In this document: one piece after another, positions 2,893-6,363 of the stretch | How positions within the stretch are numbered: the stretch's first letter is position 1 | Layout of the letters: each line of letters starts with the position of its first letter | Assembly: GCA_024640955.1 (NCBI GenBank) | Contig: JAHEDZ010000042.1 | Coordinates: 1-64,000 of the forward strand | Source: Oceanospirillaceae bacterium | Lineage (GTDB): Bacteria; Pseudomonadota; Gammaproteobacteria; Pseudomonadales; Balneatricaceae | Direction: 5' to 3' | DNA length: 64,000 nucleotides | Made by a program: the position numbers and the translations under genes | Notes under the pieces: generated by a model | What the model saw: the letters and a program-made list of their open reading frames with translations, nothing else | The model's database searches: none | Told to the model about the DNA's origin: nothing

Positions 2893-4104
2893 TTAGTCGG
2901 CCTGTCGACGCAAGAAGGCTGGGATGTCCAGGAACTCCATATCGTCAGTGCCAGTTTTCTGTACAGTTGGCTGCTCAAGTGGCAGATCCTGCTGTTCAGT
3001 TTTGCGGTTACGAATCACAGTCGGCGTATCCAGATCGGTAAAGCCAGCCGTTGTTGGAGCAGCAACAGTACGCGTAAGCTGCGCCTGCGGTGCAGGCTGA
3101 GCCGCTGCCTGAGCATCGGAATTGACGACCTGTGCTTCCATCTGCTGTGCGCGGGCCAGACCGGTTGCTACTACTGTAACTTTAAGCTCTTCGCTCATAT
3201 CAGGGTCGATTACAGTACCCACAACAACGGTAGCGTTGTCAGAGGCGTACTCTTCAACAACCTCACCCACTTCGGCGAACTCACCAAGACTCAGGTCCAT
3301 ACCTGCAGTGATATTTACCAGAATGCCACTGGCACCCTTAAGATCGATATCTTCAAGCAGCGGACTGTTGATCGCCGCCTCAGTCGCTTCACGCGCACGC
3401 TCATCGCCGCGAGCAACGCCTGTACCCATCATCGCTTTGCCCATTTCCGACATGACGGTACGCACGTCAGCAAAGTCGACGTTGATCATACCCGGACGGA
3501 TGATCAGATCCGCGATACCCTGCACCGCGCCTTTGAGCACGTCGTTTGCCGCACTGAAGGCTTTGATTAGGCTAGTGTTTTTACCCAGAACAGGGAGCAG
3601 TTTTTCGTTTGGAATGATGATCAGGGAATCAACACGGTCCTGCAACTCGCGTATACCCTCTTCAGCGATCTTCATGCGCTTGCGACCTTCGAATGGGAAG
3701 GGTTTAGTCACTACAGCGACTGTCAAAATACCCATCTCTTTGGCCACCTCTGCAACGATTGGCGCGGCACCGGTGCCGGTACCACCACCCATGCCAGCAG
3801 TGATGAAGACCATGTCAGCGCCTTGCAGCATCGCCATAATCTGCTCGCGATCTTCCATCGCAGCAGACCGACCTACTTCAGGATTAGCACCTGCACCCAA
3901 GCCTTTGGTCAGCTCACCACCGATATGAAGGGCTGCGTGCGATGCGATCTTCGCCAGCGCCTGGGCATCTGTGTTGGCACAGATAAACTCTACGCCATTT
4001 ACATCCGACGACACCATGTGTGATACCGCGTTACCGCCGCCTCCCCCGACACCGACAACTTTGATCACAGCACTTTGAGTCGCGCTATCTACCATTTCAA
4101 ACAT
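2893..4104 (-). CDS. ftsZ: Cell division GTPase FtsZ, 403 aa
   Basis: This is the tubulin homologue that polymerises into the Z-ring at mid-cell. The nucleotide-binding glycine loop [10 protein letters not shown] lies near residues 18-27 and the tubulin signature GGGTGTG at residues 107-113. A variable glutamine/alanine-rich linker (about 320-390) is followed by the conserved C-terminal peptide [11 protein letters not shown], which binds FtsA and ZipA. The start at 4104 has an excellent Shine-Dalgarno (GGAGGTG). It lies 85 bp downstream of ftsA. Unlike the usual dcw cluster, lpxC does not follow: a terminator does, and then tlyA on the other strand. Confidence 0.99.
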
Positions 4105-4189: not shown

Positions 4190-5482
4190 TCAGAAGTTAC
4201 CCTGAACCCAAGTTTTGATACGTGCCACCCAGCTCCCCTGCTCGGTATCACGGGATTCTCTCTTTTCAACACGGTGCTCTGAGCGTTCATCTGCAGTCAG
4301 GCTCATGTCATCTACGCCGCGAGTATCAACAGATTGCACCAACTCATTATCAGCGGAGTAGAGCATTAGACCGATCGCTGTGGCGTATATAGGATTAGTT
4401 AGTAGGTCATCCACACCAGCCACACCCGTTGGGCGCGCTAAACGCACCGGCATGTGGAAGATCTCCTCAGCCAGCTCAACTGCGCCCTCCATCTTGGAGG
4501 TACCACCTGTCAGAACCAGACCTGCTGCAACCAGATCCTCAAAACCACTGCGGCGTAACTCCGCCTGCACCAGCGTAAATAGCTCTTCATAACGAGGCTC
4601 TACCACTTCAGCTAACGCTTGGCGCGACAGGTCGCGTGGAGCGCGGTCGCCGACGCTAGGAACTTTAATAGTCTCATCGGCACGCGCCAGCTGTGCCAGG
4701 GCACAGGCGTACTTCATCTTGATTTGCTCGGCATGCTGCATCGGTGTGCGTAGCGCCATAGCAATATCGTTACTCACCTGGTCACCCGCAACTGGAATCA
4801 CAGCTGTATGGCGAATCGCACCTTGAGTAAAGACCGCGATGTCGGTAGTGCCACCACCAATATCGACCATACAGACGCCAAGATCCTTCTCATCATCGGT
4901 CAATACGGCATAACCTGAAGCGAGCTGTTCTAGTACAACAGCGTCCACTTCTAAGCCGCAGCGGCGCACACACTTCTCGATATTCTGAATGGCGTTGGTT
5001 GCACCGGTTACCAGATGAACCTTAGCTTCAAGACGCACACCAGACATACCCAGAGGCTCTTTAATGCCCTCTTGGTTATCGATTAAGTACTCCTGAGGAA
5101 GAATATGAAGAATTCGCTGATCTGCTGGGATAGCGATAGCCTGCGCCGCCTCGATAACGCGCTCGAGATCAGACTCAGTCACCTCACGGCTCTGTAGTGC
5201 AACGATACCGTGGGAGTTGTGGCTATCGATATGGCTGCCGGAGATACCGACACTAACTGAATGAACCTTGCAGCCCGCCATAAGCTCGGCGGCTTCAACA
5301 GCACGCTGAATCGATTGTACTGTGGATTCAATATTGACGACGACGCCGCGCTTCAGACCGCGCGAGGGGTGTGACCCTACACCAACGACATCAACACTGC
5401 CGTCCTGCCCAACTTCAGCGACCATACAGACCACTTTCGAGGTACCGATGTCGAGCGCAACAATCATTTTAGGATCTGTCAC
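4190..5482 (-). CDS. ftsA: Cell division protein FtsA, 430 aa
   Basis: This actin-like ATPase tethers FtsZ to the inner membrane. The phosphate 1 motif ALDIGTSKVV starts at residue 9, a second phosphate motif appears as VDIGGGTTDIAVF, and the extreme C-terminus (WVARIKTWVQGNF) is the amphipathic membrane-targeting helix. The annotated start is GTG at 5482. An ATG five codons downstream (5467) has a better-placed AGGTGA and is a serious alternative, although orthologues usually have a few residues before the MIVGLDIG-like segment. ftsQ normally sits immediately upstream and overlaps ftsA; here a ~500-bp AT-rich non-coding region replaces it, so ftsA must have its own promoter. Confidence 0.98.
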   Translation of the reverse strand: MTDPKMIVALDIGTSKVVCMVAEVGQDGSVDVVGVGSHPSRGLKRGVVVNIESTVQSIQRAVEAAELMAGCKVHSVSVGISGSHIDSHNSHGIVALQSREVTESDLERVIEAAQAIAIPADQRILHILPQEYLIDNQEGIKEPLGMSGVRLEAKVHLVTGATNAIQNIEKCVRRCGLEVDAVVLEQLASGYAVLTDDEKDLGVCMVDIGGGTTDIAVFTQGAIRHTAVIPVAGDQVSNDIAMALRTPMQHAEQIKMKYACALAQLARADETIKVPSVGDRAPRDLSRQALAEVVEPRYEELFTLVQAELRRSGFEDLVAAGLVLTGGTSKMEGAVELAEEIFHMPVRLARPTGVAGVDDLLTNPIYATAIGLMLYSADNELVQSVDTRGVDDMSLTADERSEHRVEKRESRDTEQGSWVARIKTWVQGNF

Positions 5483-5524
5483 CTGTTATAACCTGTCCAG
5501 AAAAAGGCGGTTTCCCGCTATGAG

Positions 5525-5570
5525 CGCCAAAACTCAGAAACTATTTTTAGTTTTTAACGAAATTTTGGCG
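5525..5570. repeat. Nested inverted repeat just upstream of ftsA
   Basis: The outer arms CGCCAAAA (5525-5532) and TTTTGGCG (5563-5570) enclose an inner repeat AAACTA-TTTT-TAGTTT (5538-5553). In an ftsA transcript starting further upstream, this would fold 43-88 nt before the start codon. It may be an operator or an mRNA leader structure. Confidence 0.6.
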
Positions 5571-5772
5571 TTCTTATCATTAATATTAGCACGATTATTA
5601 ACCACCGCTGATCATAAAAGCAACAACTAATTTAGTATAAAAACGCAATCGAATTTGAAGTTATAATAATATTACTCCGTTATATATCAATAGCTTAGCT
5701 ACATCAAAGTCCCTTTATTGGGGCCTATTACAAGCATCCTATAGATTATATTTTTCAATAATGAGGAGATAT

Positions 5773-5791
5773 AAAATCAAGATTTGATTTT
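5773..5791. repeat. Short inverted repeat AAAATCAA-GAT-TTGATTTT
   Basis: Perfect 8-bp arms (5773-5780 and 5784-5791) flank a 3-nt centre. The half-site ATCAA/TTGAT recurs in the longer repeat at 5834-5864, suggesting related sites or a fold-prone sequence. Confidence 0.5.
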
Positions 5792-5833
5792 GAATAAATA
5801 GCGAAATATCAAAACCAATTCTTGAACAAGCAC

Positions 5834-5864
5834 TAATTAATCAAAAACTATTTTTGATTAATTA
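5834..5864. repeat. Perfect 14-bp inverted repeat with 3-nt loop
   Basis: The arms TAATTAATCAAAAA (5834-5847) and TTTTTGATTAATTA (5851-5864) are exactly complementary around CTA. This is too perfect to be chance drift even in AT-rich DNA. It could be a cruciform, a regulator site, or a remnant end of a small mobile repeat. Confidence 0.65.
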
Positions 5865-5958
5865 AATGTATTTCAATATTAGTTTTTGATTTTTTATACT
5901 AACTATATCCCTATTATCACCAGCAACCAACGACCTCTAGCTGACAGCGAACACAAAA

Positions 5959-5985
5959 AAGGCGCTCAGGATAAGTGAGCGCCTT
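5959..5985 (-). terminator. Rho-independent terminator after the small membrane protein gene
   Basis: The arms AAGGCGCTCA (5959-5968) and TGAGCGCCTT (5976-5985) pair perfectly. On the minus strand they are followed by a run of Ts (TTTTTTGTGT). It ends the gene at 6007-6363 and separates it from ftsA. Confidence 0.85.
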
Positions 5986-6006
5986 GCGACAACTGCCTAT
6001 GGGTCT

Positions 6007-6363
6007 CTATGGCCAGTTGAGGTATAGGTAGACATCAACGATCAGCGTAAGAGGTAGCATCAGCATAAGCGTCGTCTTATCACCGAGCAGGCGCTGCAAG
6101 AATACGATATGGATAATGGGGAATGTCAGAAACATGCAGGAGAGCGGGATCGACCAGTGCTGAGTTAAAAAACCATACGCCATGGCACCGACCAAGCTCA
6201 GCGCAGCAAAATTACCCGTCAGAACCACTGATACCTGAGAATTCTTACTTTTAAGCCACTCTGGCTTCTGGTCCTCGGCCAGTTTATTTAGCGCACTGGC
6301 ACTCAGCGCAGCAGACATTGAGACAAGGCCGGCGGCAAGAAAGATGTATAGCGCTTCGTTCAT
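6007..6363 (-). CDS. Small four-helix inner-membrane protein, unknown function, 118 aa
   Basis: I do not recognise the family. The start is ATG at 6363 (MNEALYIFLAAG), preceded by GAGGAT at good spacing. A longer reading frame reaches back to 6486, but its extra residues are not protein-like and overlap the divergent gene. Four hydrophobic stretches are visible (about residues 5-23, 42-62, 68-90 and 97-115), with a short lysine-rich loop between the first two. It ends in its own terminator and is divergent from a small secreted protein gene. The function is unknown. Confidence 0.7.
   Translation of the reverse strand: MNEALYIFLAAGLVSMSAALSASALNKLAEDQKPEWLKSKNSQVSVVLTGNFAALSLVGAMAYGFLTQHWSIPLSCMFLTFPIIHIVFLQRLLGDKTTLMLMLPLTLIVDVYLYLNWP

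Follow-up and report, generated by a model that had tools for sequence, protein, structure and literature searches.

To our knowledge, the control of FtsA and FtsZ amounts is known in few bacteria. In Escherichia coli, several promoters drive ftsA-ftsZ as part of ftsQAZ, an operon within the dcw cluster, and we know of no phased operator array there. NtrC-type enhancers, for example the paired sites before glnA, consist of 17-bp dyads about 32 bp apart, and NrdR acts at paired boxes, two only, whose dyads lie about three helical turns apart. Autoregulation is frequent, though not universal, in the Lrp/AsnC family. According to two reports, Lrp-like proteins wrap DNA and bind it at multiple sites spaced by two or three turns, and the operators of BarR and Ss-LrpB contain several AT-centred dyads of about 15 bp, with the DNA being wrapped by an octamer or by several dimers (PMC2995911, PMC10201364). 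The FleQ box is given, in a further report, as a 14-bp core made up of the repeats GTCAAT/ATTGAC with 2 nt between them (PMC10723142).

The DNA analysed here, from now on referred to as the window, is the first 64 kb (64,000 nucleotides) of contig C19 of a 2.59 Mb draft genome that is 99.12% complete. Similar to E. coli ftsQAZ, the operons described below appear to have several promoters for ftsA-ftsZ, but they lie outside the dcw cluster and carry a phased array. The 32-bp period of this array (97 sites in 24 leaders) matches the two-or-three-turn dyad spacing of Lrp/AsnC operators; in contrast to these, its target is ftsA-ftsZ, it has up to five sites at a near-constant 32-bp period and no Lrp gene adjoins it in the loci whose neighbours were examined. 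With sigma54 enhancers it shares 17-bp dyads about 32 bp apart, located upstream of GG-N10-GC in 16 of 24 leaders, whereas its half-site is different and the window's genome has the array without a sigma54-like element. The FleQ boxes of Pseudomonas have the same TCAA/TTGA half-sites, and a sigma28-like element suggests a flagellar context for the array as well, but in array sites TCAA and TTGA are separated by 9 bp. Pairs of NrdR boxes are alike in their three-turn spacing and presumably differ in sequence and box number. Based on position, spacing and a motif conserved before related ftsA genes, we read 5777-5889 as an array of phased operators that serves the ftsA-ftsZ operon and would be bound by an oligomeric transcription factor, and assign this reading a probability of roughly 0.65. 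The same evidence supports the suggestion of an earlier note on this DNA that the region is a regulatory array for division genes.

Four phased palindromes in the leader of ftsA

In the window, ftsZ, ftsA and an ORF of 118 aa are all encoded on the minus strand, with an AT-rich leader (5483-5958) located between ftsA and the 118-aa ORF (Table 1). The latter gave zero Pfam or NCBIfam matches. The closest named relatives of the window's FtsA are found in Marinobacterium, placed in the Oceanospirillaceae by NCBI and presumably in the family that GTDB names Nitrincolaceae.

Table 1 Coordinates of features in the window and of the Lrp/AsnC-family genes found at the corresponding position in related genomes.
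Feature	Location (strand)	Sequence or size	Remarks
Palindrome 1 (ftsA-distal)	5873..5889 (-)	TCAAAAACTAATATTGA	1 mismatch to TCAAAA-N5-TTTTGA
Palindrome 2	5841..5857 (-)	TCAAAAATAGTTTTTGA	0 mismatches; centre of perfect 14-bp inverted repeat 5834-5864
Palindrome 3	5809..5825 (-)	TCAAGAATTGGTTTTGA	1 mismatch
Palindrome 4 (ftsA-proximal)	5777..5793 (-)	TCAAAATCAAATCTTGA	1 mismatch
Candidate sigma70-type promoter	5595..5623 (-)	TTGCTT (5623-5618) N17 TAATAA (5600-5595)	
Presumed ftsA 5' untranslated leader	5482..5588 (-)		Start inferred at ~5588; hairpins 5519-5576 and 5501-5519
ftsA	4190..5482 (-)	430 aa	GTG start; TIGR01174, 515 bits
ftsZ of second operon	2893..4104 (-)	403 aa	TIGR00065; groups with second-operon FtsZ in tree
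Hydrophobic ORF	6007..6363 (-)	118 aa	Frequent upstream neighbour of second ftsA-ftsZ operon
Intrinsic terminator of 118-aa gene	5959..5985 (-)	10-pair stem, then TTTT	Divides gene from array
Wedged Lrp/AsnC gene, L034	7416-7877		
Wedged Lrp/AsnC gene, L076	931-1392		
Wedged Lrp/AsnC gene, L077	3149-3610		

Within the leader, four 17-bp palindromes of the form TCAAAA-N5-TTTTGA, each with at most one mismatch, follow one another with a period of exactly 32 bp. The earlier note had described a region of abruptly different composition with three separate inverted repeats, one of them a perfect 14-bp pair with a 3-nt loop, and a recurring motif. The difference in composition is confirmed (29.8% G+C in 5483-5958 against 52.5% in the whole window, whose lowest-GC 476-bp stretch begins at 5451 in a scan by steps of 50), as is the perfect pair (5834-5847 / 5851-5864). 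Inverted repeats are indeed present, but they are not separate, being mostly parts of the one four-palindrome array: the perfect pair and the further repeats 5808-5825/5841-5858, 5834-5857/5873-5896 and 5773-5780/5784-5791 coincide with it, the exception being 5519-5532/5563-5576. The motif, AAACTATTTTT, does occur twice in the window (5538 and 5845) and was rejected as the repeating unit: the copy at 5845 is found within a site, the one at 5538 in a separate inverted repeat, with a site score of 5.7 against 20.8-31.5 for the four array sites.

Among 5,000 dinucleotide-preserving shuffles of 5483-5958, scored with a motif that came from the real sequence itself, 43 contained one site and none contained two. 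In a motif-free test, a chain of four 6-5-6 palindromes with a period of 20-44 bp arose in 1 of 2,000 shuffles. Allowing up to one mismatch, the pattern matches 11 places in the window's genome versus 5 for the reversed control; among the 8 of these 11 places that were listed, four make up the array and the others are single. No second copy of the array was found in this genome, the sole other match being the array against its own reverse.

Conservation before related ftsA genes

Conservation in the ftsA leaders of close relatives, which the earlier note had set as a test, was found. A like array of 3-5 sites precedes the non-dcw ftsA-ftsZ operon of Marinobacterium, Nitrincola, Neptuniibacter, Amphritea and Osedax symbionts. 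We collected 24 leaders with 97 sites, with chain members allowed up to 3 mismatches and a spacing of 30-34 bp; one of the leaders (L084) has two sites only, one of them weak. The sites share the consensus TCAAWATTNAATWTTGA, and in five sister pairs identity is 90-94% in the site arms versus 47-69% in the linkers, figures that are partly circular because the sites were chosen by likeness to the motif. Less circular is the clustering of successive spacings, which are 30-33 bp and mostly 32, within the allowed 30-34 bp.

Among 113 distinct ftsA genes, at least three sites precede 21 of the 28 without ftsQ directly upstream, compared with no site pair before any of the 85 that have ftsQ upstream. 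Of these 85, 22 belong to the family and 63 come from other families, in many cases from Pseudomonas. The seven remaining genes without ftsQ are those of L085 and L203 with two sites, L041/L084 with a single accepted site, three species in which an Lrp gene replaces the array, and Motiliproteus (L017/L093), where ftsA lacks an upstream ftsQ and yet has no array. A stricter pattern, TCAAWATNNNATWTTGA, matches 20 places in 24 whole genomes versus 1 for a control pattern, and 18 of the 20 fall within array leaders. The other two are strong single sites (G013 C1:216243 and G016 C1:1247479) with no surrounding array and are taken as chance. There is no exact match to this pattern in the window's own genome, the sites of which differ slightly. 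The array looks dedicated to one operon, barring overlooked weaker sites elsewhere, and it remains with ftsA while the upstream neighbours vary. A foreign remnant, as previously considered, or a chance AT-rich spacer would account for the sharp drop in G+C; however, an array that is kept across genera, is not reproduced by shuffles and has no other copy in the genome leaves such an origin with a negligible probability.

A duplicated ftsA-ftsZ operon

Of 24 family genomes searched, 19 yielded two ftsZ genes, compared with 0 of 13 outside the family, where one genome (G035) shows ftsZ as two pieces; two full ftsA genes are present in 11 of the 24 family genomes. One operon is classical and follows ftsQ. 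The other has a different location, and the region fetched around it usually contains a relative of the 118-aa ORF. BLAST identified such a relative in the regions fetched for 20 of the 24 array leaders, at distances of up to several kb; it was unseen for G005, where the contig ends, as well as for L039, L098 and L203.

Trees were built for FtsA (41 rows) and FtsZ (46 rows) from loci chosen among L000 (the window), L012-L045, L078-L122 and L202-L213. In the FtsZ tree, the window's protein falls with those of second operons. No such separation of the two operons is seen in the FtsA tree, and the identification of the window's ftsA as the second copy thus rests on its neighbours and on FtsZ. Generally, FtsZ copies fall into a dcw group and a second-operon group, G019 and Motiliproteus being among the exceptions, and FtsA copies often cluster by genome, as seen in G016 (nearly identical copies), G010, G019 and M. 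lacunae/M. litorale. This is the pattern that gene conversion of ftsA, alongside divergence of ftsZ, might leave.

The dcw cluster of the window's genome passes from ftsQ directly to ftsZ at C12:79789-81497 (L210), with no space for ftsA. The draft genome yielded no further true ftsA, its only other match scoring 27 bits and corresponding to a part that matches MreB. With the main-cluster ftsA gone, the array therefore precedes the sole ftsA found in the window's genome. An ftsQ-ftsZ junction without ftsA is also seen in G001 (L211) and G004 (L212). Identity between the dcw FtsZ of the window's genus and the window's second-operon FtsZ is about 58-62%, and dcw FtsZ C-termini end in ...AFARR, ...TYARR or ...TYLRR, shorter than ...AFLRRQAD. 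In G012, a second locus (G012:C96, L207) contains ftsZ together with a 118-aa ORF relative but neither ftsA nor array; this genome is also without FliA and FlhA.

Promoter-like elements between array and ftsA

Where present, promoter-like elements lie at distances from the array that vary by 2-4 bp only, counted from the centre of the ftsA-proximal palindrome. In 14 of 24 leaders, a sigma28-like GCCGAT is found at 135-138 bp, and 9 of these leaders also have TAAA 14-15 bp upstream of it; by consensus, we take GCCGAT plus TAAA to be a sigma28/FliA-type promoter. GCCGAC occupies this position in L103 and GCCGATA lies farther away in L084 and L085. Among the 24 leaders, GCCGAT is absent from those of G000 (the window's genome), G001 and G005 and from L087, L090, L091 and L208. 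Of the 24 leaders, 8, including those of the window, G001 and G005, have a sigma70-like TTGNTT-N17-NRATNN at 159-163 bp, and 2 more have it elsewhere. The -35 of the window's candidate begins 162 bp past the centre of palindrome 4; this candidate is absent from the sites reported by a general consensus scan. In 300 shuffles of the 24 leaders, the sigma70-like element was in place in a mean of 0.05 leaders and at most 1, and no more than 1 leader had the sigma28-like element in place, with both patterns having been read off the same, related leaders.

For a sigma54-like TGG-/GGG-N10-GC, the distance is 239-241 bp in 14 of 24 leaders; L084 and L085 have this element at another distance. The array-to-element distances also hold in Amphritea and G019, where the sigma54-like element is about 100 bp farther from ftsA. 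An alternative reading is that the array is an enhancer for an NtrC-type sigma54 activator looping to a -24/-12 promoter before ftsA. Besides the 16 leaders with such an element, the presence of rpoN in all 12 genomes tested, that of the window among them, is in line with it, and 17-bp dyads 32 bp apart would also suit NtrC-type proteins. However, six of the 24 leaders, among them the window's, have no GG-N10-GC between array and ftsA, and G001 and G005 have no sigma54-like element at 239-241 bp. As the array was kept in the window's genome without a sigma54-like element, control by a sigma54 activator alone is less likely in this case. Further, the score of the element is matched by at most 2% of shuffles in 9 of the 16 leaders but by 5.5-14.5% in the other 7, and the Neptuniibacter stretch may instead be a sigma70 promoter. 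Sites of known activators do not fit either: the NtrC dyad has 8.1 of 12 mismatches to the array sites and the FleQ box, at its best offset, 6.9 of 12. The sole activator gene directly upstream of an array, in G016, encodes PspF; as it adjoins pspA, PspF was rejected as the regulator. Taken together, we regard a sigma54 enhancer as unlikely.

The same distances bear on the idea that the array is a chromosome-organising or segregation site, bound by a nucleoid-associated or partition protein and simply located near ftsA. AT-richness and the near confinement of strong sites to one locus per genome would be expected of such a site, but the array stays with ftsA despite changing neighbours and keeps distances of 135-138, 159-163 and 239-241 bp to the elements, making this explanation very improbable.

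It may also be that RNA or DNA structure is what matters, either as the 14-bp perfect hairpin or through attenuation in the leader RNA. The leader RNA (5470-5588(-)) has a predicted fold with z -3.4, in addition to the perfect inverted repeat of palindrome 2. In 4 relatives, however, nothing comparable was predicted (z -0.29 to 0.05), and the fold was dropped as a conserved element; zero Rfam matches with E up to 5 were obtained in 5300-6100. The array would be outside the leader RNA because it is located upstream of the sigma70-like element. The earlier proposal of a DNA-structure element does not hold as the main function, as the conserved features are the 17-bp dyads and their spacing, and the perfect arms belong to one of four sites. 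We consider a structural role of either kind to be highly improbable. On the minus strand, the predicted leader hairpin at 5501-5519 reads GCGGGAAACCGC, followed by CTTTTTC, and is attenuator-like.

Proposed mechanism and candidate regulators

We infer the action of the phased operator array from the sites, their period, their conservation before related ftsA genes and their near-constant spacing to promoter-like elements, all of which can be read in the DNA. Each 17-bp palindrome would bind one transcription factor dimer. As 32 bp correspond to three helical turns, the dimers would lie on one face of the DNA, and 3-5 of them would therefore bind cooperatively as one higher oligomer, with the DNA probably wrapped or looped around it. 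The bound oligomer would then set the activity of a promoter (5595-5623) that follows at a distance of about 160-190 bp. What counts against this reading is that about 200-300 bp separate the array from the proposed transcript start downstream of it, which is far for a classical repressor.

The leading candidate for the array-binding protein is a member of the Lrp/AsnC family, although this is a guess and a tentative one. An Lrp/AsnC octamer, i.e. four dimers, would fit the geometry and context best; the site sequences do not point to it in particular. At site centres, the E. coli Lrp consensus has 4.8 of 15 mismatches versus 7.1 at random positions; however, on a quarter of the sites, 15% of 5,040 symmetric column permutations fit equally well, so that the match does not serve as proof. 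The window's genome encodes four AsnC-domain proteins. No comparable array, which autoregulation would lead one to expect, was found before Lrp genes in 52 Lrp-related loci taken from a larger number of matches, some of them overlapping (L046-L075, L174-L195), a sample that includes all 4 of the window's genome.

Losses in the genus of the window

FliA (over cut-off) and FlhA were detected in the same 16 of 24 family genomes, and G000-G004, the window's genome being G000, have neither. In G005, FliA and FlhA were detected and the sigma28-like element is absent; the flagellar genes of this genome are uncertain because it is listed as 6% contaminated. GCCGAT is present in 9 of 12 FliA-bearing and 0 of 2 FliA-less array genomes (14 in the 24-genome set), numbers too few for significance. 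The window's leader keeps the array and the sigma70-like element, without the sigma28- and sigma54-like ones.

Of 6 genomes of the genus, 3, specifically the array-less G002-G004, have an Lrp/AsnC-family gene that separates ftsA from the 118-aa ORF (Table 1), which speaks for an Lrp/AsnC protein as the regulator. There, this gene is preceded by CGCAAA-N3-TTTGCG palindromes (at most 2 mismatches) located 101-146 bp apart. The fact that Lrp is accompanied by another kind of palindrome in these three species counts against an Lrp/AsnC protein as the binder of the array. One relic array site with a score of 24.2 is found in G004 upstream of the Lrp gene before ftsA. The nearest relative of the wedged Lrp in G005 (62%) adjoins a putative alanine dehydrogenase ORF.

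A broader scenario, possible and at the same time rather doubtful, is that the duplicated operon became wired to the array together with sigma28-type, sigma54-type and vegetative promoters in tandem, which would couple early division proteins to motility, and that the window's lineage subsequently lost flagella, both of the corresponding elements and the main-cluster ftsA.

Significance

Phased operator arrays as such are known. An array on a duplicated ftsA-ftsZ operon, combined with this set of promoters, is apparently new: in the titles and abstract openings of the open-licence papers surveyed, no description of these ftsA-ftsZ duplicates or of the array was found. For related marine bacteria, it represents a conserved control region in which putative binding sites, their spacing and likely promoters are directly readable and testable. 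If our reading is true, these bacteria would provide a natural example in which a division operon has been duplicated and the second copy is regulated on its own, possibly in connection with motility.
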